Source: Fictibacillus enclensis
GTDB taxonomy: Bacteria; Bacillota; Bacilli; Bacillales; Fictibacillaceae
Reading direction: 5' to 3'
NCBI RefSeq assembly: GCF_001457035.1
Contig: NZ_KQ758617.1
Location: 1,550,001 to 1,614,000, forward strand
DNA length: 64,000 bases
How positions within the stretch are numbered: position 1 is the first letter of the stretch; each line of letters begins with the position of its first letter. Under the pieces are notes generated by a model, which had not been told where the DNA came from, searched no databases, and saw only the letters and a list, made by a program, of their open reading frames with translations. Position numbers and translations under genes: made by a program. Positions 12,058-21,842 of the stretch are shown piece after piece.

Positions 12058-12154
12058 TTTTATTAGTCCTGCAGTTTGAAAAAAGTGCCATTGTCGAGGA
12101 GTATTGATTTGTTTTGAAGATGTCCTTGCATATAGACAACTTGAATTCATTACT

Positions 12155-12979
12155 TTAGATGTGCTTTTTAACTATGTCTTTCACTTTATTAATACCCTTC
12201 CATACATCCCCTGGTTCGTCATAAACTAATGTTAAAGGTCCACTGTAATCAGCGTCCCTTAGTAGAGCTAAACAGTTTTCTAATTCTTCCTTGTCAACTT
12301 CGCCATCTTGTGTGGTGAGAGCCTTTACATGGACAGATTTACTTTTAGGAAGAGTTTCCTTTAAAGAGTCCAATTTGTTAGGACCAGAGAAGTTCCCGAA
12401 GTCACTTATTAAGCCGGTAAGGTCAGTATGTTCAAGTAAATACAAACAATTTTCTGATGTAGACGCTAACGACCGAAAATTTTCGGTTAAGACCCCAACA
12501 CCTTTTTTCTTTGCGTATACGCATAGCTCAGTAAACTGGACCGAAGCACGTTGTAAAGCTACTATATCTTCTGGACTTGATTCCCCGCTAACAACTCGTA
12601 CATTTTCAGCCCCAGCTATTGAAGCAACATCAATCCAACTTTTGATAAAATCCATATCCTTCTCTCTTCGGACGGGATCTGAAGTGGATATATCACCATA
12701 ATCAATCAAGAGAGTATAAAACCTTATGCCACTCTTTTTTATGGATTGACATAATTTTTGTAAATAATCTAGTTCAGTAGAATGGAAATGTGCATGTACA
12801 ATTTCTACTGCTTGGAATCCTTTTTCAGACAGGATGCCTGGCAGATCTACTAGTTTAAGATTTAACGGTTGTTCCTCAACTTCTGTCACAATTTCTTTTT
12901 TATCATGATCCCATTTTGACCAAGATAAAGGACCTAAATGTCTGTGTAAGCTCCAAGATGTTAATGATAAATAGCTCAT
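12155..12979 (-). CDS. Sugar phosphate isomerase/epimerase family protein (xylose isomerase-like TIM barrel)
   Basis: Putative TIM-barrel enzyme of 274 residues. Seen: SLTSWSLHRHLGPLSW at the N-terminus, FQAVEIVHAHFHS (barrel strand with metal-site histidines), IRFYTLLIDYGDIS, GVLTENF with a conserved glutamate and PLTLVYDEPGD near the end. Members isomerise or epimerise keto sugars using a divalent metal. The ATG at 12979 has AGAGAGGA 10 nt upstream. The open frame continues to 13111, but that part overlaps an acyl-CoA ligase relic, so the longer start is rejected. It stands alone between relics and a terminator; the substrate is unknown. Confidence 0.7.
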   Translation of the reverse strand: MSYLSLTSWSLHRHLGPLSWSKWDHDKKEIVTEVEEQPLNLKLVDLPGILSEKGFQAVEIVHAHFHSTELDYLQKLCQSIKKSGIRFYTLLIDYGDISTSDPVRREKDMDFIKSWIDVASIAGAENVRVVSGESSPEDIVALQRASVQFTELCVYAKKKGVGVLTENFRSLASTSENCLYLLEHTDLTGLISDFGNFSGPNKLDSLKETLPKSKSVHVKALTTQDGEVDKEELENCLALLRDADYSGPLTLVYDEPGDVWKGINKVKDIVKKHI

Positions 12980-13087
12980 ATATTCGATGTCCTCTCTTAG
13001 AAATTCATAGATTGTAAATTTAGTTTTATATTCTTTGGGAGCAAGAATCACACTTTCGTAATATCCATCAACCGTCGTCCGAGGCGT

Positions 13088-13226
13088 GGCCCAACCAACG
13101 CTTCGCCCCATTCCGGATCAGGAATACCAAATACACTCAATTCATCAATCTGCGAATGCTTCACCATACTTCTTCCACTTCACGCGGATAAATTTTGTTG
13201 CCTCCACTTCCACTGATGATCATGTC
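13088..13226 (-). pseudogene. Acyl-CoA synthetase (AMP-binding) C-terminal relic
   Basis: Minus-strand translation gives MIISGSGGNKIYPREVEEV in one frame, then after a -1 type shift MVKHSQIDELSVFGIPDPEW and GEALVG in another. These are the hinge and C-terminal cap motifs of AMP-forming acyl-CoA ligases (normally the (S/N)GGxxIxPxEVE hinge followed by VFGxPDxxxGE). An inserted SG and the frameshift break the gene and the large N-terminal domain is absent. Only about 45 codons remain. Confidence 0.75.
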
Positions 13227-13308
13227 TATTATGCAGTAATCTCACATAATCATCATTCCTTATCAGATTATTCAGCTATTAAATTATCTTCTATAATAGA
13301 CTTTAAAA

Positions 13309-13329
13309 AGCAACTTCAGAGAAGCTGCT
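13309..13329 (-). terminator. Rho-independent terminator after hisJ
   Basis: Minus strand AGCAGCTTC/GAAGTTGCT (9 bp, one wobble) with a 3-nt loop, followed by TTTTTAAAG. It begins at the hisJ stop codon and is the first clear terminator downstream of the yhf-like gene run. Confidence 0.75.
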
Positions 13330-14135
13330 TATAATTCCGTCATATACCTTTTTTTCTTTCTAAAATACGCCCACTCCCGGAACCCGATCTCCTTTAACCG
13401 CTTCTGGACTTCTTCAAATTCATCGCCGACTCGCTTCGGGGTATGAGCATCAGAGCCGAACGTCACGGCTACACCATGGAACAGGGCACGTTCAAGTAGC
13501 TCATCTGCGGGATACCATCCTCCGCAGTCTTTGTTCTTTCCGGATGTATTAATTTCTATGGCAATTTCATACTGCGAGATGGTTTTCAACGTTTTATCGA
13601 CGGCCTCGGTCTGAATTGTGGAAAAAGCAGGATAGTAACCTTTCATGGCATCGATATGGCCGAGGATCTGAAAAATCCCGCTTTTGGCCGATTGCCCGAT
13701 CAAATCATAGTAGGTTTCTTTCGTTTCCTGCTTTTGTTTTTCGGTTAACCCCTCCCAGCGGTTTCTTTTAAAAATACTTAGTCCGCTCACATGATGCACC
13801 GATCCGATAATGTAATCTAGCGGAAATTGCTCATAGTATTGCTGGTACATCTCGGCATGCTCGGGAAAAAAGTCCGATTCCACACCCAATAGTACTTCAA
13901 TTTTCCCCTGGTACTCTTCCTTGAGCTGAAGAACCTCCTTGATGTATTGGGGAAAGTGGCTTTTGGCCATCGCAATACCTGGAAAGAGATGGTCTTCTTC
14001 ACTGTACAGATAAGGTGAATGGTCAGAGATTCCGATCATGTCCAAATGGTTTTCAATTGCGGCCTCAATGTATGCGCGAATGCAATCTTCCGCATGGCCA
14101 CATCGGTCATGGTGAGTATGATAGTCAAATTTCAT
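13329..14135 (-). CDS. hisJ: Histidinol-phosphatase of the PHP family (HisJ-like)
   Basis: Metal-dependent PHP-domain phosphatase, 268 residues, the same length as Bacillus HisJ, which removes phosphate from L-histidinol phosphate. Seen: DYHTHHDRCGHAEDCIRAYI (HxH motif), ISDHSPYL, LLGVESDFFPEH, SVHHVSG, ILGHIDAMKGYYP, EINTSGKNK and a C-terminal FGSDAHTPKRVGDEF. AGAGGTGG lies upstream of the ATG at 14135. It starts 36 bp after the serine hydrolase with no terminator between, so it may be the last gene of the long yhf-like transcript rather than a plain housekeeping his gene; a different phosphorylated substrate is possible. Confidence 0.85.
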   Translation of the reverse strand: MKFDYHTHHDRCGHAEDCIRAYIEAAIENHLDMIGISDHSPYLYSEEDHLFPGIAMAKSHFPQYIKEVLQLKEEYQGKIEVLLGVESDFFPEHAEMYQQYYEQFPLDYIIGSVHHVSGLSIFKRNRWEGLTEKQKQETKETYYDLIGQSAKSGIFQILGHIDAMKGYYPAFSTIQTEAVDKTLKTISQYEIAIEINTSGKNKDCGGWYPADELLERALFHGVAVTFGSDAHTPKRVGDEFEEVQKRLKEIGFREWAYFRKKKRYMTEL

Positions 14136-14171
14136 GTAAAACCACCTCTTTTAAAATTAAAGTCTAGTATC

Positions 14172-15452
14172 TTATTTTTTGATGGAAGTATAAACTAGAT
14201 TGGCGATTTCCTTTGAAAGCGGACCTGTACTTGGATAACTCCCACTTGGAAGTGGTCCGTTATTCTGCTTGTTGGTCAGTACGATAATCTGCAGGTTATA
14301 TGCCGGATCAAAAATAACCTGTGTGCCGGTAAAGCCGGTATGTCCGAACGCTTTGGAAGAGTAATAGTCTCCCATGTACCAGTTTTTAGCCTTTTCCCAG
14401 CCATAACCCTGTCCAAATGCATGCTCCGAAGTGAAGTTTTGAATGGTTTTTGCCCCATACACCTTTTCCTTCCCATAAGAACCGCCGTTCAGCATCATTT
14501 GGCCGATGACGGCTAAATCCCTTGCTGTAGAAAACAGTCCTGCATGGCCAGCAACTCCTCCATTGGCATAAAAACTGTTGCCATCATTCACTTCTCCTAC
14601 CAGCGTGTAATGCCGCCAGCCAGGAAACATGTTCGGATCCTCTTCTACATAATAGCCGAAATCGGGATCGTCTATCATTTTATATTCGTAAGGATTTCCC
14701 CAAGAAGTGGCAGCGATCTTGTGCCCCAGACTGGCATCAGGGGTAAACATCGTATTTTTTAGTTTCAGTGGCTGGTAGATTTGTTTTTCCAGATAGACAT
14801 CAAGTGGCCGGTGGGTGATTTTTTCGATGACAAAGCCAAGGGTCATAAAACTAAAATCACTGTAAACGCGCTTAGTGCCTGTCGGGTATTCCAGGGGTAA
14901 GTTGTTGATGATCTCCAACACTTGCTTTGGATTTCTGGCATATAAGTAAGTTGGTTTCCAAGGGGTTAATCCGGAAGTATGTGTAAGTAAATCGGCAGTC
15001 GTCACATGCTCTTTTCCATTTTGTCCGAAATCAGGGATATACTTTACAACCGGGTCGGAGAGCTTCAGCTTTTTTTCATTTACAAGCTTCATGATGCCTT
15101 GTGTGGTACCCATTACTTTGGTTATAGAAGCCAAATCAAAAAGCGTGTTCTTTTTCATTTTACGGGGATGGGGGAGCAGAACGCCCATGTCATATTTTTG
15201 TGCATCTCCGTATGCAGTTTCTTTTACGATTTTCCCATTTCTCGCGACCAAGACGACAGCGCCAGGCGTCATTCCGGTTTGGATCGCCTGCTTGGCCACC
15301 CCGTCAATTTTCCCTAACGTCGTGGAACTCATTCCTACCGATTCAGCATGACCGTATGTTAATTTTGTCGCTTGAGCAGACGCCTCCGCTCCGACAGGTA
15401 TTGCAGCAGTAATCAAACAAAACGCCATAAAAGTACTCAACCATTTCTTCAA
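14172..15452 (-). CDS. Exported serine hydrolase, beta-lactamase/class C PBP family (YbbE-like)
   Basis: Secreted beta-lactamase-fold hydrolase of 426 residues. Signal peptide KKWLSTFMAFCLITAAIPVG with AEA-SA cleavage region. Seen: SxxK nucleophile motif in FDLASITKV, Tyr motif region RVYSDFSFMTLG, and the third motif as HTG in FGHTGFTGTQ. Likely start TTG at 15452 (AAAGGAG 8 nt upstream); GTG at 15455 is an alternative. Family members are esterases, D,D-carboxypeptidases, D-aminopeptidases or relatives of YbbE. It lies only about 30 bp after the yhfX-like gene with no terminator, suggesting it feeds or processes the substrate of the yhf-like pathway outside the cell (inference). Confidence 0.8.
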   Translation of the reverse strand: MKKWLSTFMAFCLITAAIPVGAEASAQATKLTYGHAESVGMSSTTLGKIDGVAKQAIQTGMTPGAVVLVARNGKIVKETAYGDAQKYDMGVLLPHPRKMKKNTLFDLASITKVMGTTQGIMKLVNEKKLKLSDPVVKYIPDFGQNGKEHVTTADLLTHTSGLTPWKPTYLYARNPKQVLEIINNLPLEYPTGTKRVYSDFSFMTLGFVIEKITHRPLDVYLEKQIYQPLKLKNTMFTPDASLGHKIAATSWGNPYEYKMIDDPDFGYYVEEDPNMFPGWRHYTLVGEVNDGNSFYANGGVAGHAGLFSTARDLAVIGQMMLNGGSYGKEKVYGAKTIQNFTSEHAFGQGYGWEKAKNWYMGDYYSSKAFGHTGFTGTQVIFDPAYNLQIIVLTNKQNNGPLPSGSYPSTGPLSKEIANLVYTSIKK

Positions 15453-15482
15453 CACAATCACTCCTTTACCCTTTTATTTTTT

Positions 15483-16646
15483 TCACATCCCTCTCCGCTG
15501 AAAGTGAACCACCTCCGGGTTATGAGAATTTGTTCGTTGAATAAAAGCCACATGGGACCTCGTGACAAAAATCTGTGACCGAAAGGCATAGATTACTGAA
15601 TCTCCAACATTCATTCCATCGTTTTTCTCAAGGCTTCCATAATAATCGATATTTTCGTAAGACGGAGGCTGCACGCTTGTTTCTTGTTTCAATAGACGTT
15701 GAGGGGTATTTCCAAAAAACGCTTTTTCCATATTGGACCTTGCGTAAAAGCCTCCAGCAATCGTATAAGCCGCGTAATCATCCATATGGGAAATTTCTGA
15801 AACATAAACCAGGCATGGGGTTTCTTGCAGTGATGATGTATAAGCATGAAGCGGTGTGGTTCCGGTCATGGCATGCCCCGGCTCTCCATGGGTAATACCA
15901 TGTTCTTTTAAAAAAGGGATTGTAAAGCAGCTTGTTGAACCCGGCGCATTAATATGTGTCACCCTCACCCCCTGATCCTCCATGATCTCTCTCGCTTTTT
16001 TTAACGTTTCGAGGTTCATTGTAAAATCAAAACCGGTTTGACCTTTGTTTAGCTGCAGAACCGGAAAGCTGGTCAAGCCGATCACGTTTATTCCTGGAAG
16101 CTTGAGCAATTCAGGGACAGCAGCATTTATTGTGTTAAGGGGAAACCCTCCATGCTGGCCTGGATACAACACATCGTGTTCACTGATAACACGGAGTATC
16201 ACATTCTGCGATTTTCCAAGAGACAAAGCGGCCTCAGACAGCTGTTCTGCCCGCTCCAAGGAAAAAAGGGTGATCACTTCCGGGCAGATTTTGGTGAGAA
16301 CTTCCTTCCACTGCTTGTTTCCCGGCTGAACCAAATGCCCGACGTTTCCGATTTGGCAGCCTGCTTTCTTCAAATTAAAAGCCTCATCGATATCCACAGC
16401 AACTGCTTTTGAAATGCCGTTCTTTTCAATGACCTGTCCAATATAACCGCTTCGCCCGATTTGTTTTGTCATGTAATACAATTGCAAATCATGCTCTTTG
16501 GCACACCGGGAGAGACTTTGAACATTGCGGCAAAAGGAATCGAGGTCAATCACATACGTATTGGGCGGAATGGACCCGTTTTGATGAAGGGCTGCAGCTG
16601 CTTTGACTAATGCCGGGTTTCTCTTTTTCATCATGTCTGTAAACAT
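15483..16646 (-). CDS. yhfX: YhfX-like PLP enzyme (alanine racemase N-terminal fold)
   Basis: 387-residue fold-type III pyridoxal-phosphate protein related to E. coli YhfX. Seen: TYVIDLDSFCRNVQ, PLP-lysine segment LQLYYMTKQIGRSGYI, VILRVISEHDVLYPG, THINAPGSTSCFTIPF (phosphate-binding region) and HGEPGHAMTGTTPLHA. Relatives include alanine racemase and D-threonine aldolase, but this branch has no settled function that I know of. The ATG at 16646 is chosen because AAGGAG lies 9 nt before it; an upstream ATG at 16673 would overlap the preceding gene. It is the seventh gene of the yhf-like run. Confidence 0.82.
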   Translation of the reverse strand: MFTDMMKKRNPALVKAAAALHQNGSIPPNTYVIDLDSFCRNVQSLSRCAKEHDLQLYYMTKQIGRSGYIGQVIEKNGISKAVAVDIDEAFNLKKAGCQIGNVGHLVQPGNKQWKEVLTKICPEVITLFSLERAEQLSEAALSLGKSQNVILRVISEHDVLYPGQHGGFPLNTINAAVPELLKLPGINVIGLTSFPVLQLNKGQTGFDFTMNLETLKKAREIMEDQGVRVTHINAPGSTSCFTIPFLKEHGITHGEPGHAMTGTTPLHAYTSSLQETPCLVYVSEISHMDDYAAYTIAGGFYARSNMEKAFFGNTPQRLLKQETSVQPPSYENIDYYGSLEKNDGMNVGDSVIYAFRSQIFVTRSHVAFIQRTNSHNPEVVHFQRRGM

Positions 16647-16659
16647 CGTCGGGAGCTCC

Positions 16660-17778
16660 TTATGATATGTCATCCATTATCTTGTTAAGTATCGTTAGCA
16701 CGGTTAGTGCTGAAGCTTTCATCGGATTGACGCGGAGACCAAATTCCTTTAACCGCGGCTGATGCTCAAGGAAACTGCCGGATACCCGGTAAATCATGGG
16801 CAACAGTTCATATTTCGATTCAGCGCCAACCGGGTAGGTCGCTGCACCATGGCAGCTTGCGTTTTCAATTACTTTTTGGGCAATGGGCTTCTTCAGCTCT
16901 ACGATCACATTTTTTGACTGGGAATTGGTGATATATGCCTCTTTTACGAAGGGGACCTCTCCTTTATTTAGTCTTTCGCACAAATCTTCCACCTGTTCAT
17001 TTTGAATGGCCAGCATAACAGGTGCCATCGTCATGGCGCGCAGCAATTCATGGCCTTCATGCCCTTGAACCTGTCCCCCTCCTGAATAATTGCGCTTATG
17101 GAGTGTTTCGATGAAATCTTTCGTTCCCAAAATGACTCCAATTCCTTCTGGCCCCAGAACTTTAAAACCGGAAAAGGTGGAAACATGAGCCCCATATTCA
17201 ACGCCTATTCCTTTCATTTTTAAAGCGCAATAATTATCATCGACAATGATCATTACATCCGGCCGGAGATCCTTGACTTGAGAAATCACTTCCTGAATCC
17301 GATAAGTGTCTGTTGGCTGCTGCCTTGCATGCTGAACATAAAATACCTTGATTTCTGTATGTTTCTGTAAGGCTTTAATCAGTTGCTCCTTGTGGTTGTA
17401 ATTTACCGGTTTCTGCACTAACCCCATCAGGCGAAAGGTTTCCCTTGTGGTCATGTACATCGGTGCATCATGGACAAAAATGGAATCCCCCGGCTCAGCT
17501 AAAATACTTAACGCTAACCGGATGGCACCGGTGCCGCTTCCTCTTACCAGTGCACACGCTTCACTGCCAAATACACTGGCGATTACTTTTTCCGCCTTTG
17601 CTGTCGTTTGCGGCCGGTGATGGTCGGGATGCAACCCGACATCGCCGAGGGTAAAAAATGAATTGTGGTGAAAGACTTTGGTCATCTCTTCTACCAATCG
17701 AAACTGCAGTTCCTTTGCTTCTTCCAGTGTTCGGTTCTCCAACATAGATTCCGCATATTTAAGTCGCACCCTGTTCAC
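16660..17778 (-). CDS. yhfS: YhfS-like aminotransferase (PLP fold type I)
   Basis: 372-residue aminotransferase-like protein matching E. coli YhfS. Seen: VRGSGTGAIRLALSIL (PLP phosphate cradle), VMIIVDDNYCALK with the aspartate that pairs to the PLP ring nitrogen, and STFSGFKVLGPEGIGVILG with the Schiff-base lysine. The GTG start overlaps the stop of php as GTGA, indicating translational coupling. Substrate unknown. Together with YhfX it gives the cluster two different PLP enzymes, pointing to an amino acid or amino-containing substrate. Confidence 0.83.
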   Translation of the reverse strand: MNRVRLKYAESMLENRTLEEAKELQFRLVEEMTKVFHHNSFFTLGDVGLHPDHHRPQTTAKAEKVIASVFGSEACALVRGSGTGAIRLALSILAEPGDSIFVHDAPMYMTTRETFRLMGLVQKPVNYNHKEQLIKALQKHTEIKVFYVQHARQQPTDTYRIQEVISQVKDLRPDVMIIVDDNYCALKMKGIGVEYGAHVSTFSGFKVLGPEGIGVILGTKDFIETLHKRNYSGGGQVQGHEGHELLRAMTMAPVMLAIQNEQVEDLCERLNKGEVPFVKEAYITNSQSKNVIVELKKPIAQKVIENASCHGAATYPVGAESKYELLPMIYRVSGSFLEHQPRLKEFGLRVNPMKASALTVLTILNKIMDDIS

Positions 17779-18695
17779 CCCCTCTCCTTAATGCTGAACG
17801 CCTTTTTCGGATTTTCCTTCAACAGCTTCTCGATGACCGCTTCTGTCACTCCCTGTTTTTTCAAGGCAGGAACAAACGACCGGAGAACAACATCATACCC
17901 ATGTCCGCCGGAAGAACGCAGATGGGATTTTCTCGTTAGATCACTGGAAAGCAGCAGTTGGTCTTCATATCCCTCTTCCAAAAAAAGAAGCAGGGCATTC
18001 AAGCGATCCTGATCCGATCGGTAATTCTCTTTACCGATCGTGTCGAGAGCGACATATGCCCCGCTTTTCAATACGTCCAAAACGACTCCGTTATCCTGGT
18101 TTAAGTCCTGATGTCCGATGATGACCTGATGAAGCGGTAATGCTTCTGTTATAAACAAATCGATCTGTTCGGCAGCGCACGTTCCCAGAGTGGTATGGGT
18201 GGAGAGAGTCAAACCCGTCTGACGGGCTGCCTCTATAGCTCCATGGAATAATTCTGTTTCAATGGGTTTAAATTCATTGAAACTGCTACCAATCTCACCA
18301 ATGACCCCTGGCTTGATGCCTGTTCCAGCAATACCGTAACAAATTTCATCTACCATCCACTCAGCAAACTGATCACGGGTCCATTGCTGTTTATCTTCTG
18401 GGATAAAAGGATCCTTATAACAGCCTGTACTTGCGACAATGTGCAGATCGAGCGTGGTGCTCAATTGTTTCAGGATCTCTGGGTTCCTGCCCATTCCATC
18501 ATTCGTGACCTCGATCACCGTCCGGCCGCCGAGCACTTTAAATTGTTCCAAGTCTTCGGCGACTAACTTTTCTTCCTGCAAACAGCAATCCTTGTCGTTT
18601 TTGATATGACTTAAATCCACATACAGATGTTCATGACAGGCACAGATACCCAATTCATCTGGCTCGATCAGACCTTTCACGGTTTGTATAAGCAT
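17775..18695 (-). CDS. php: Phosphotriesterase homology protein (Php/YhfV)
   Basis: Amidohydrolase-superfamily binuclear metalloenzyme, 306 residues. Seen: CACHEHLYVDLS (HxH metal ligands, residues about 21-23), GVIGEIGSS in the bridging-ligand position (glutamate here, as in E. coli PHP, rather than the carbamylated lysine of true phosphotriesterase), LSTHTTLGT, IIGHQDL and LLSSDLTRKS with the catalytic aspartate. GGAGGAGA precedes the ATG. In spite of the name, members of this branch are lactonases or hydrolases of unknown natural substrate. It is 12 bp downstream of the yhfT-like membrane gene. Confidence 0.87.
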   Translation of the reverse strand: MLIQTVKGLIEPDELGICACHEHLYVDLSHIKNDKDCCLQEEKLVAEDLEQFKVLGGRTVIEVTNDGMGRNPEILKQLSTTLDLHIVASTGCYKDPFIPEDKQQWTRDQFAEWMVDEICYGIAGTGIKPGVIGEIGSSFNEFKPIETELFHGAIEAARQTGLTLSTHTTLGTCAAEQIDLFITEALPLHQVIIGHQDLNQDNGVVLDVLKSGAYVALDTIGKENYRSDQDRLNALLLFLEEGYEDQLLLSSDLTRKSHLRSSGGHGYDVVLRSFVPALKKQGVTEAVIEKLLKENPKKAFSIKERG

Positions 18696-18707
18696 GTATT
18701 CTCCTCC

Positions 18708-20006
18708 TTAGCCTGCAGGCGGTGTGTACAATCCAATCCACACGAGAATATTTCCGAGAATCCCCACGGCGATAGCCCCGATTGGACCTACAGCCATGCG
18801 GACAATCGGCCGGCCGGCCGCCTCGTTGAGCAAATAGAGCCCGGCAATCGCAAAAAAACCGAGTCCTGGAACAATGGCGTTGGCCGCGTTCGCACCGCCG
18901 ATCAGCAAAGCCACTTCAAGCACCCGTGTCATGGCGGTACGAATGTTTTCGCCGGATTCACGAATACCCGGGTAGCGGTCAAGCACTTTGGCTAACTGTG
19001 TCAGCAGCATTACTTCGGCAAAGATAATAACTGCCCCCAGAATGGCGGCGAGGAAAGGGTTAGGTGAAAAAATACCTGCGCCAAAAACAAAGGTAAATCC
19101 AACAGGGCCATAAACCCCTGTTGCAATGGCGGTACTTGCGATTAACGGGACGAATCCAATCGCTTTAGCGAGTGAAGCAATACCGCCTTCGGAAATCTTA
19201 CCGTCAGAAAGCAGGTTAAGAGAAATAGGATCTCCTGCAATCATAAGCTGATTGGTTGCAACGGCCACGAGCGCGCCACTGATCATTAATACCCAGGAGT
19301 ATTTCCTGATTTTTGCGACCCGTTCGGTAAACAACGAGGCAAGTATGGAAAGGTTCTGGTCTTCGGATTTTTCCCTTATGGCAAACGAAAGCAAAAAGAC
19401 CATTCCTATGATTAAGGCAATACCTTCAGGACTTAATACAACTTGTGTTCCGTTAATCAAAATCAGTTTTTCAATGTTGGCAAAAACAATAAGCTGACGG
19501 GCAATGGCTGCTGCGATAAAGGTAAGTACACCTTTCTTGATGCTGAATTGCAAGGCAACAGCAATGGCAGGGAACACCATAAAAGAAACAACCACCGGTT
19601 CGCCCACTTTATTGAATCCATCCACGAAATTAAGAGGCAGCATTTTAAACACTTCAACGACCGACTGGAGTCCATAGTAAATGCCAAGTCCATATAGGGC
19701 TCCCGCCACACCTGCCAATACGGCATTCACTTTGCTCCGGTTAAACGCCAGACCGATGATATCAGTACCAAGCAAGATACTGTGGATTAAGATAATACTT
19801 CCTGCAATCGAGATCGGAATTCCAAACCCGATGACAAGACCAAAGCTCATGGCGAATGCAGTTACTCCCAATTCTTTGCGGCTCATCCGTCCTTCCAGAT
19901 TTTCTGGTACGATTGGACGGAGACCATCATTAAAAACGGCGATTCCCAAATTTGCCATAACTGCAGCAAGCGCACCGATACAAACCATTAACCCCGCTTC
20001 CAGCAT
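18708..20006 (-). CDS. yhfT: YhfT-family membrane protein, putative transporter
   Basis: 432-residue polytopic inner-membrane protein with about 11-12 hydrophobic segments, matching YhfT of E. coli. Seen: LMVCIGALAAVMANLGIAVF, IIGLAFNRSKVNAVLAGVAG, AKVLDRYPGIRESGENIRTA and GRPIVRMAVGPIGAIAVGIL. No known transporter family motif is apparent. AAGGGGGATAAATC precedes the ATG. Its place among soluble catabolic enzymes suggests that it imports the cluster's substrate (inference). Confidence 0.82.
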   Translation of the reverse strand: MLEAGLMVCIGALAAVMANLGIAVFNDGLRPIVPENLEGRMSRKELGVTAFAMSFGLVIGFGIPISIAGSIILIHSILLGTDIIGLAFNRSKVNAVLAGVAGALYGLGIYYGLQSVVEVFKMLPLNFVDGFNKVGEPVVVSFMVFPAIAVALQFSIKKGVLTFIAAAIARQLIVFANIEKLILINGTQVVLSPEGIALIIGMVFLLSFAIREKSEDQNLSILASLFTERVAKIRKYSWVLMISGALVAVATNQLMIAGDPISLNLLSDGKISEGGIASLAKAIGFVPLIASTAIATGVYGPVGFTFVFGAGIFSPNPFLAAILGAVIIFAEVMLLTQLAKVLDRYPGIRESGENIRTAMTRVLEVALLIGGANAANAIVPGLGFFAIAGLYLLNEAAGRPIVRMAVGPIGAIAVGILGNILVWIGLYTPPAG

Positions 20007-20031
20007 GATTTATCCCCCTTATTTATTTGAT

Positions 20032-20397
20032 CTATGTGTATTGTTTCAGTAAGGCTCCCATTACGTATTCCACCGCTTGTTCCTTATGATCTCCTGTAAA
20101 ACCAAATGCTTTTGCCCCTGATTCCACCGCTTGTTCCACCTGTTCTTTAACCGGCTTTTTACCAGGCATGGAAATGGTGGCACATTTCGGTTTTCCCAAT
20201 AGAGCAATGGCCATGGCAAGTGCTCCGCCTCCCCCGGTATGGCAGGCTCCGAGGTAATAATCCGCTCCGCCTGATTTAATGAGCATAGCCGCTTCAAGAT
20301 CCGATTTTATAACAACGTTAACCTGATCTCCTCCCGCTGCCTTGACCAACTGTTGAATTTCCTGCTTTTCCACTTGTCCTCCGATTGCAATCCTCAT
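20032..20397 (-). CDS. yhfU: YhfU-like DUF2620 small protein
   Basis: 121-residue soluble protein of the DUF2620/YhfU family: MRIAIGGQVEKQEIQQLVKA, DYYLGACHTGGGGALAMAIA and GKPVKEQVEQAV-like lysine-rich middle. The CHTGGGGALA glycine-rich loop is the family hallmark and could bind a phosphate or nucleotide. GGGGGAGAC precedes the ATG. It has no known function; it always accompanies YhfT-type membrane proteins in the clusters I know, so it may be an accessory transport component (inference). Confidence 0.8.
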   Translation of the reverse strand: MRIAIGGQVEKQEIQQLVKAAGGDQVNVVIKSDLEAAMLIKSGGADYYLGACHTGGGGALAMAIALLGKPKCATISMPGKKPVKEQVEQAVESGAKAFGFTGDHKEQAVEYVMGALLKQYT

Positions 20398-20412
20398 TTG
20401 TCTCCCCCTCTG

Positions 20413-20757
20413 CTAGGCTGATAGCACATTCACAAAATGCAGGTATAAAAACTCTTTTTCTTCTTCTGGCAAGTTCTGATTTAACAGTTTTTCAATCCAG
20501 CCGACACGTCCCCGTGCTTCCTCCATTTTCGGAGATTGATAGACTTCTATCATGATATCCGTTGGCGGCGGGAGCAGCTCCTGCTCTCTTTCTATTCTTG
20601 TTAGTGCCATTGCGAGATGTGTAATCAGCATAGTGTACTGGTCCGCTTCATTCTCGCTTACAAATTTCTGAATGGTCTTCCGGCAGATGTCAAAAGCCGT
20701 CTCTGTAATGGAATCGCTGCTTTTTAACAACTCCAGGCGTTCCAGCAATCCATTCAC
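20413..20757 (-). CDS. yhfY: Stand-alone PRD domain protein (YhfY-like)
   Basis: 114-residue protein that consists essentially of one PTS regulation domain (PRD): an all-alpha unit with LITHLAMALTRIEREQ carrying the usual PRD histidine, and a C-terminal EKEFLYLHFVNVL containing the second. It matches YhfY. GTG start with GGAGG upstream. PRDs are usually phosphorylated by HPr or EIIB in antiterminators; a free one in an operon with a GntR-like regulator suggests a link between PTS state and this pathway (inference). Confidence 0.75.
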   Translation of the reverse strand: MNGLLERLELLKSSDSITETAFDICRKTIQKFVSENEADQYTMLITHLAMALTRIEREQELLPPPTDIMIEVYQSPKMEEARGRVGWIEKLLNQNLPEEEKEFLYLHFVNVLSA

Positions 20758-20784
20758 TTAAATCCTCCTTTCAAAAACACTTTA

Positions 20785-21705
20785 TTAATATTTAGGGAGA
20801 TGATCTCCTGTTTGTACCATTTCCTGAATCTGTTTCACCTTTTCTAAATGAACCAGGCTCAGTCCATAAGCTCCCTTTTTATTGTCGTTCCTGGCTACAC
20901 ATACGGCCTCCCCCATATACTCTCCCATCTTTTTAGCTAGGGGCGAAGAAAGCTGCATGGTGTGATAGCGTTCATTATCCACCTCATCCATATTCCAGAT
21001 GGTGGCGTCGATTGTTTTGGCCTGAATATGCCGAAGCAAATGCATGTAGTTCAGCTCGATGTATTGCACGTTTTTATTCTTAGTCTCTTCTTTAATCAAA
21101 ACTTGTTGGTCGGTTGAGAACGGGTCAATTCCAATCTTCATCCCGTCTTCAAAGCTTTTGTATTTCCGGTCTGAAAAAATAACCGCATGTTTGGATACAT
21201 AGGAGTAGCTTCCAAACGAAAGAAGAGTGGAAAGTTCAGGATGCTCTTTCATGGCTTCATTTGCCGAAAACCTGGAAACGATGGCAAAATCGTACCTGCC
21301 CTGTACTACCTCCTGGAGCCGGAGTTTTGCTCCCCTCATGAATGCAATACTTAATTCCATTCCTTGCGCCTGACACTCGGAAGAAAGTCCGGATGCGAGG
21401 CCTTCATACTTTTTGGAATAAGGTAAAGGCATGATTCCCGTTAATCGCTCCATGCCGCAAAATTTCAAGAGCTGAGGGGTGTTTTTGTACCGTAAAAAAG
21501 TCCCCAAATGACCTTTGGCTTGAAGCCGGATACTTCCGCTTTCCTCCAGGTATTTTAGAACCGTCTGGATCGTGCCTCTGCCCACACCGTTCATACTCGC
21601 TAAATCACCAATCTTTGGGATGCGATGATCCACTTCAATGAATAAGAAAGATTCTGCTATTTTTTGCAGGATCATTCCTTTTTTTGATAAAAGCCGTTCA
21701 TTCAT
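20785..21705 (-). CDS. yhfZ: YhfZ-like transcriptional regulator
   Basis: 306-residue regulator related to E. coli YhfZ. Residues about 10-65 form a GntR-type winged helix (RIPKIGDLASMNGVGRGTIQ then TVLKYLEESGSIRLQAKGHLG). The rest resembles a periplasmic-binding-protein sensor (GIMPLPYSKKYEGLASGLSS, FAIVSRFSANEAM). It is the first gene of the yhf-like run and probably controls it and itself. A TACAAA-N2-TTTGTA dyad sits 21-34 bp upstream of the start. The Shine-Dalgarno is weak, in keeping with a low-abundance regulator. Confidence 0.8.
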   Translation of the reverse strand: MNERLLSKKGMILQKIAESFLFIEVDHRIPKIGDLASMNGVGRGTIQTVLKYLEESGSIRLQAKGHLGTFLRYKNTPQLLKFCGMERLTGIMPLPYSKKYEGLASGLSSECQAQGMELSIAFMRGAKLRLQEVVQGRYDFAIVSRFSANEAMKEHPELSTLLSFGSYSYVSKHAVIFSDRKYKSFEDGMKIGIDPFSTDQQVLIKEETKNKNVQYIELNYMHLLRHIQAKTIDATIWNMDEVDNERYHTMQLSSPLAKKMGEYMGEAVCVARNDNKKGAYGLSLVHLEKVKQIQEMVQTGDHLPKY

Positions 21706-21725
21706 TTGTGTTCTACCACGCTTTG

Positions 21726-21739
21726 TACAAAAATTTGTA
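21726..21739. promoter_or_regulatory. TACAAA-TT-TTTGTA dyad, candidate YhfZ operator
   Basis: TACAAAAATTTGTA on the plus strand is an inverted repeat with 6-bp perfect half sites and a 2-bp spacer, located 21-34 bp before the yhfZ start. Its position fits autoregulation. I did not find a second copy elsewhere in the cluster. Confidence 0.45.
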
Positions 21740-21805
21740 TTTTCAACATCAACATACCATATGCGAAAGAAGGAGACAATAAATTTTTTGAAAATTTAAA
21801 AAAGA

Positions 21806-21824
21806 GCCATCCCAGCAGGATGCC
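21806..21824 (-). terminator. Rho-independent terminator after metE-like gene
   Basis: Minus strand GGCATCC/GGATGGC-type stem with loop TGCTG, followed by CTCTTTTTTAAATTTT. It lies 19 bp after the stop of the methionine synthase-like gene and isolates it from the yhfZ promoter region. Confidence 0.75.
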
Positions 21825-21842
21825 CCTCGTTCTCTTACTATT

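Follow-up and report, generated by a model that had tools for sequence, protein, structure and literature searches.

A yhf gene cluster with an exported serine hydrolase in Fictibacillus enclensis as a candidate YhfZ-controlled salvage operon

A yhf cluster was analysed in a 64,000-nucleotide stretch of the Fictibacillus enclensis genome (contig NZ_KQ758617.1, positions 1,550,001 to 1,614,000; hereafter the window, with positions counted from its first letter). The closest described system is the yhfS-Z cluster of Escherichia coli, and a search of titles and abstract openings found no study on the function of the yhf genes. By blastp, six families (YhfZ, YhfX, Php, YhfU, YhfT and YhfS) show 33-44% identity between the two clusters, and E. 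coli YhfY stays below the cut-off of the PRD family (19.9 of 23 bits). The E. coli cluster (L099; our numbers for loci begin with L, those for genomes with G) runs Z Y X W Php U T S, unlike the window. It has a gene of YhfW size, which the window lacks, and neither a hydrolase nor a PHP gene was found among the open reading frames (ORFs) read beside it.

A second likeness is to the operons for salvage of N-acetylmuramic acid (MurNAc), which are arranged murQ murR murP amiE nagZ in Bacillus subtilis and murQ murP yfeW in E. coli. In these two species the operon pairs MurP with PBP4B or AmiE, and AmiE and NagZ work outside the cell (PMC5061867). As in the window, a secreted PF00144 hydrolase stands beside an uptake system tied, in our case putatively, to the phosphotransferase system (PTS). 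The window differs in that its hydrolase falls outside the AmiE-like clade and that neither MurP/EIIBC nor a MurQ-like gene is among its nine genes. A third set, the SFCGS/DUF4311/DUF4312 clusters with DgaE-like and DgaF-like genes (and a DUF4310-like gene, recognised by reading only), shares with the window a small PRD protein, a small RpiB-related protein with a conserved cysteine, membrane proteins, an amidohydrolase and a pyridoxal phosphate (PLP) enzyme, best read in L111. Here the PLP enzyme is of the DgaE/SelA type and an aldolase is present, unlike the window, and YhfT showed no kinship by hhalign to the DUF4311 and DUF4310-like proteins (5 and 3 sequences only). The SFCGS family (PF14272) is above its cut-off in 5 of 299 genomes.

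We put at about an even chance that the nine genes of the window form one YhfZ-controlled, PTS-dependent salvage operon laid out like the MurNAc operons. The AmiE/PBP4B-type hydrolase would cut an amide or ester bond outside the cell and release a small compound. The module of YhfY, YhfU and YhfT (Y-U-T) would import this compound in a manner dependent on the phosphate relay of the PTS (HPr), if only through control by the PRD protein YhfY. Inside the cell, Php, YhfS and YhfX, joined elsewhere by YhfW, an amidase-like protein and NagB, would convert it to central metabolites, and in the window operon a side step might fall to the PHP phosphatase. Such a layout would parallel that of the secreted AmiE beside the MurP PTS permease. 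The orphan yhf cluster thereby gains concrete handles in the form of a putative operator, a co-travelling secreted enzyme and a link to the PTS. The features of the locus are as follows.

21802 to 21828, minus strand: hairpin and T run that follow the gene upstream, methionine-synthase-like by reading, -15.2 kcal/mol, z -2.5
21722 to 21743, unstranded: YhfZ box, a putative operator 17-38 bp 5' of yhfZ, matrix score 20.7
20785 to 21705, minus strand: yhfZ, GntR-like regulator (NF041241, 347.6 bits, cut-off 260)
20413 to 20757, minus strand: yhfY, lone PRD domain (Pfam), His47 invariant in the rows aligned
20032 to 20397, minus strand: yhfU (DUF2620), predicted RpiB fold (model), Cys52 invariant in the rows aligned
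18708 to 20006, minus strand: yhfT (PF10797), membrane protein with a mostly helical model, no solved fold matched
17775 to 18695, minus strand: php (yhfV), amidohydrolase of the PTE family, with conservation of six residues presumed to form the metal site
16660 to 17778, minus strand: yhfS, PLP protein resembling PDB 4j8l, with K206, presumably the PLP lysine, conserved
15483 to 16646, minus strand: yhfX, PLP protein resembling alanine racemase, reading frame open from 16673 with a probable start at 16646
14172 to 15461, minus strand: exported AmiE/PBP4B-type serine hydrolase (PF00144), start GTG 15461 or TTG 15452
13329 to 14135, minus strand: PHP-family phosphatase, HisJ paralog, below the NF005996 cut-off
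13308 to 13330, minus strand: terminator-like hairpin and T run after the PHP gene, -11.6 kcal/mol, z -2.2

The hydrolase is tied to the yhf set more firmly than the PHP gene. Orthologs were found in 18 of the 33 genomes of the order with YhfT and in none of the 364 without it (Fisher 1.6e-22, which ignores kinship); counted by genus, the figures are 7 of 16 against 0 of 119 (p 8e-8). The search covered 397 genomes with at most the best four candidates per genome scored. The orthologs are 62-100% identical (own genome included) and score at least 560 bits, whereas the next relatives reach 282 bits with 45% identity. Three of the 18 genomes (G203, G329 and G348) carry the gene at a distance from yhf. 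The SxxK, Tyr and HTG residues are present, the presumed catalytic residues are conserved and the start of the protein resembles a signal peptide when read by eye. The original prediction, which regarded an exported hydrolase as part of the yhf system and expected their association to be conserved in other genomes, is borne out in this order by co-occurrence, and in some genomes by a box shared with yhfZ.

The window hydrolase is below the PBP4B (PRK03642) cut-off of NF002968, with 306.4 against 385 bits. A tree of 49 rows groups the yhf-associated hydrolases together and apart from a clade of 13 rows (100/100), where the AmiE-like proteins sit together with L279, the E. coli match presumed to be PBP4B. 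The yhf group has modest support values, 86/97 when it takes in the long-branched L195 and 84/82 when it leaves L195 out but keeps L173; the tree program warns of long branches, among them L279. The hydrolases of L148 and L151 (remote in the tree) and of L173 and L195 (long-branched) were considered as members of the same family and, given these positions, were not counted as orthologs. Among the next relatives, the AmiE-like gene of L227 adjoins a PTS EIIBC gene (by Pfam) and an exported NagZ-like one (by eye), and L226 and L228 have the same setting by eye.

A conserved element precedes yhfZ. In the window it reads TACAAATTTTTGTA, with two perfect 6-bp arms (TACAAA/TTTGTA) around 2 bp, and with up to two mismatches it occurs in 71 of 107 distinct yhfZ upstream stretches compared with 5 of 107 stretches shuffled once each. 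A 22-bp matrix with the consensus AATATACAnnATnnTGTATATT was trained on 41 yhfZ-upstream sites of a set of 80 loci described below and used to scan 2,899,951 bases at a counting cut of 21.5; since most of these loci (in overlapping sets) were chosen for yhf, the counts describe specificity within them and not a genome-wide rate. There were 216 matches, and ten column-permuted matrices gave one match in total over the same bases. The matches lie near yhfZ (115, training sites included), yhfY (62), the amidase-like gene c10 (10), PRD-type variants (9; c14, c7 and PRDb), linked hydrolase genes (6), yhfU (5), unlinked hydrolase genes (2), NagB (1) and php (1), and five lie elsewhere: two before an FAD-oxidase-like gene upstream of yhfZ and three, by position, inside yhfW of Shouchella. 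The window box is the only site there scoring at least 14, and its score falls just below the counting cut. In the proposed operon, YhfZ would bind this box.

The six boxes near linked hydrolase genes are those of L069 and L178 (the same stretch), L136, L173 and L195 (two boxes), at distances of 3-287 bp. The two at unlinked hydrolase genes, in L276 and L277 of one genus, lie 37-40 bp 5' of the gene. All eight upstream stretches of AmiE-like genes tested are free of the box. Distant PF00144 hydrolases of Clostridia that are not orthologs (L173:4147, L195:1745 and 1914) also carry it, as if hydrolases of this type had been recruited to the YhfZ box more than once. In two Oceanobacillus loci, yhfZ is preceded by a gene resembling an FAD oxidase that bears a YhfZ box (L137:683-2044, L141:685-2046; Pfam on L137).

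The layout was as the original prediction had it: seven yhf genes, the hydrolase and the PHP gene follow each other on the minus strand from 21705 to 13329, with short or overlapping spacings. Pfam and NCBIfam assign the ORFs to YhfZ, a PRD protein (YhfY), DUF2620 (YhfU), YhfT, PTE (Php), YhfS-like, YhfX-like, PF00144 and PHP, with YhfZ, YhfT, DUF2620, Php, YhfS and YhfX occurring jointly. The gaps are 27 bp (Z-Y), 15 bp (Y-U), 25 bp (U-T), 12 bp (T-Php) and 13 bp (S-X, counted from the yhfX ATG at 16646, which is preceded by AAGGAG), and Php and S overlap by 4 bp. The hydrolase follows yhfX after about 21-30 bp, close to the 30 bp claimed, and the PHP gene comes 36 bp further on, as claimed. 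Neither of these two gaps has a terminator-like fold relative to shuffles (z -0.3 and 0.8), and a terminator-like hairpin follows the PHP gene, where the original prediction placed the first clear terminator. A pattern scan for terminators did not list that hairpin and gave one weak minus-strand match, 15566-15547, within yhfX. The hairpin at 21802 to 21828 sets the upstream gene apart from yhfZ, and the nine genes may well be transcribed as a single unit.

The window YhfT shares 97% identity with the F. solisalsi protein. Within the family, 4 of 34 genomes have a YhfT above its cut-off; for the order the count is 33 of 397 (35 with a limit of E 1e-3) and for the phylum 12 of 398 (13 with that limit). 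Its neighbourhoods were read in two sets with 105 distinct YhfT proteins, one of 45 loci (47 stretches less L087, without YhfT, and L091, of 3 kb) and one made up of the best 80 of 362 confirmed YhfT relatives. The exact order Z Y U T Php S X W is found in 40 of the 80 loci, and 16 further ones have the same order with c10 inserted between T and Php. Because this order prevails in Firmicutes, that of the window is normal; it had been called different, which is true in relation to E. coli, and rearranged, which it is not.

A link to the PTS is suggested by genes outside the nine. In four loci (L078, L123, where EI is also present, L152 and L157) an HPr gene follows the cluster directly, and 0.03-0.10 HPr genes would be expected within 1 kb by chance in 126 loci, assuming independent loci and 4-Mb genomes with 1-3 HPr genes each. 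EI was found in 39 of 40 genomes with YhfT (of 41 named, the genome of L164 was left out) compared with 10 of 30 genomes of the phylum without it, and outside Bacilli in 18 of 19 compared with 9 of 29, counts that ignore ancestry and genome size. In YhfY, His47 is conserved in 124 of 124 rows and His107 in 114 of 124 (duplicates included).

Several results weigh against a single PTS-dependent operon under YhfZ. Besides the blindness of the EI counts to ancestry and genome size, the genome of L152 has YhfT and shows no EI though L152 carries HPr, and in two of the four HPr loci HPr stands behind NagB, so that the two may travel as a nagB-HPr pair. Pfam and NCBIfam assigned none of the nine genes to an EII family, and the YhfT model (pLDDT, the predicted local distance difference test, 88.0) gave no fold match with E < 0.001 and no EIIC among the 50 of 334 matches listed. 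The hydrolase ortholog is missing from 15 of the 33 YhfT-carrying genomes of the order. No strong box was found at the unlinked hydrolase gene of L278 or the upstream one of L177, and none before yhfZ of E. coli, unlike the window, or before the 18 PHP copies near yhf (14 distinct, three at a locus edge; best score 11.0).

The PHP gene is the weaker part of the proposed unit. That it is a mere neighbour, read through from the operon and without a role in the pathway, has in our view a little less than an even chance. It is found in 18 of 33 genomes of the order with YhfT and also in 46 of 364 without, its copies near yhf lack a box of their own, and in 5 of 17 PHP loci examined it stands beside a gene of an aldose-epimerase-like group (one member Pfam-tested). 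However, 14 of the 18 genomes having both carry it no more than about 10 kb from YhfT, far above chance and in four families, although nine of the 14 are from a single genus and three of those nine have it about 9 kb away; in Metabacillus arenae it comes directly after yhfX. For the predicted nine-gene unit, computation supports the hydrolase and only in part the PHP gene, which is adjacent in several lineages. The protein had also been described as a HisJ-type phosphatase; the PHP family stands, but it is not an ortholog of histidinol phosphatase. That function was rejected because the protein scores 108.6 bits on NF005996 (HisJ), below the cut-off of 133, and another gene of the same genome (L101:7232-8068) scores 371.4.

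Import by YhfT and YhfU, as originally proposed, is unsupported in that form because YhfU has a predicted RpiB fold and is presumably soluble. Its AlphaFold2 model, built from 55 sequences, has a pLDDT of 95.3, and all 11 matches with E < 0.001 are RpiB (template modelling score, TM, 0.64-0.71 by query length). RpiB/LacAB isomerases thus resemble YhfU in predicted fold and in a cysteine-containing loop, in YhfU GAC-x-[TS]-G, whose Cys52 is shared by all 127 rows aligned (duplicates included), and differ in sequence: YhfU has no match to PF02502 (RpiB/LacAB), and a direct profile match to RpiB was discarded as noise (20.8 against a maximum of 21.3 in 40 column shuffles). Profiles of YhfU and SFCGS (35.1 against 24.1) and of SFCGS and RpiB (36.9 against 18.9) did score above 40 column shuffles, with the cysteines aligned. 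No sequence relative of YhfU with E < 0.1 was found in the PDB, where two of the weak matches, 3c5y and 2ppw, reach into the region of the cysteine, and the best PDB hit of YhfT had E 0.33. Neither protein matched a viral family.

These properties would suit an ordinary, secondary transporter set in which the PTS only regulates, HPr phosphorylating YhfY as a catabolite signal and YhfU acting as an isomerase on an imported sugar phosphate. We consider this a serious alternative of lower probability than uptake dependent on the PTS. The predicted isomerase fold with its conserved loop cysteine, the lack of an EIIC-like fold in YhfT and the usually regulatory role of PRD domains speak for it. However, the three genes of Y-U-T adjoin one another in 76 of 80 loci, including loci in which the enzyme genes are arranged differently, and this suits a physical partnership better, as does a fused frame in the parallel SFCGS system. 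In that frame (L113:7134-7883) a PRD domain is joined to an SFCGS protein, with a weak LacAB_rpiB match of E 0.0035. HPr and EI lie close to the SFCGS cluster of L114. Bacillus sp. T33-2 has an extra lone Y-U-T (L154:8747-10793) beside a complete yhf cluster (12116-19976) with a longer YhfT of 499 amino acids.

In a stronger version of PTS-dependent uptake, Y-U-T would be a new type of PTS permease, with phosphate passing from HPr to His47 of YhfY, to Cys52 of YhfU and to a sugar-like substrate entering through YhfT; the SFCGS/DUF4311-4312 clusters would then form another branch of this design. We regard this as unlikely, and as the test for EIIC failed, the cluster is filed here under yhf and not under PTS, with a PTS-linked salvage operon as the reading that we consider to have the best support. 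If HPr does phosphorylate YhfY and YhfU, a type of PTS has been overlooked so far. Improbable, finally, is that the hydrolase acts on the cell wall, as a D-Ala esterase or carboxypeptidase, and does no more than share the operator, with yhf as a cell-envelope locus: FmtA and Flp are among its PF00144 relatives in the PDB, but it co-occurs with a catabolic-looking set of enzymes and its next relatives include MurP-AmiE-NagZ-like settings.

The absence of yhfW, noted in the original prediction, extends to the whole genome, in which the only matches are proteins of 403 and 512 amino acids, by size probably DeoB and phosphoglycerate mutase respectively. YhfW is present in 73 of the 80 loci and in 41 of the 45; two of the 80 (L176 and L186) end near a contig edge and five lack it. 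These five represent four lineages (F. solisalsi, Metabacillus arenae, two Alkalihalobacillus and Lederbergia citrea), and in them yhfX is followed by the hydrolase or the PHP gene. Over both sets the loci without YhfW are L047/L118, L054/L133, L055/L134, L063/L163 and L120. As it is absent from several loci, YhfW is treated as a dispensable and not a defining member of the yhf set. The idea that a phosphatase replaces it is unsupported in that form, because the PHP gene is present somewhere in the genome in all four lineages without YhfW (Lederbergia via G345) but also in 13 of 28 YhfT-carrying genomes with YhfW.

The presumed catalytic residues of the enzymes are conserved in alignments, and the pathway would run from the released compound inwards. 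As for the substrate class, NagB is above its NCBIfam cut-off in the sister operon L065, and c10 of sister operons has conserved MTGS and DGGGSV stretches; at a guess, the two point to an amide-linked amino sugar. An Amadori compound, a nucleoside or pentose, and D-Ala of teichoic acid were also considered and set aside, with scattered neighbours or nothing in their support. A nucleoside hydrolase gene is among the neighbours in L133/L134. In L188 (8998-10894) yhfW is followed by a gene of the Indigoidine_A family, which we take to be of the pseudouridine-phosphate glycosidase kind, and a PfkB kinase gene, a possible hint of pentose chemistry.

Beyond the terminator-like hairpin, the xylose-isomerase-like ORF 12155-13111 weakly matches a gene facing yhfS in E. 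coli (22% identity, E 2e-4). The genes facing yhfS there (L099:10521-15445) are presumably an frl (fructoselysine) set. In the window, a decayed stretch in two frames on the minus strand (13080-13250) reads like what we take to be the end of an acyl-CoA ligase.

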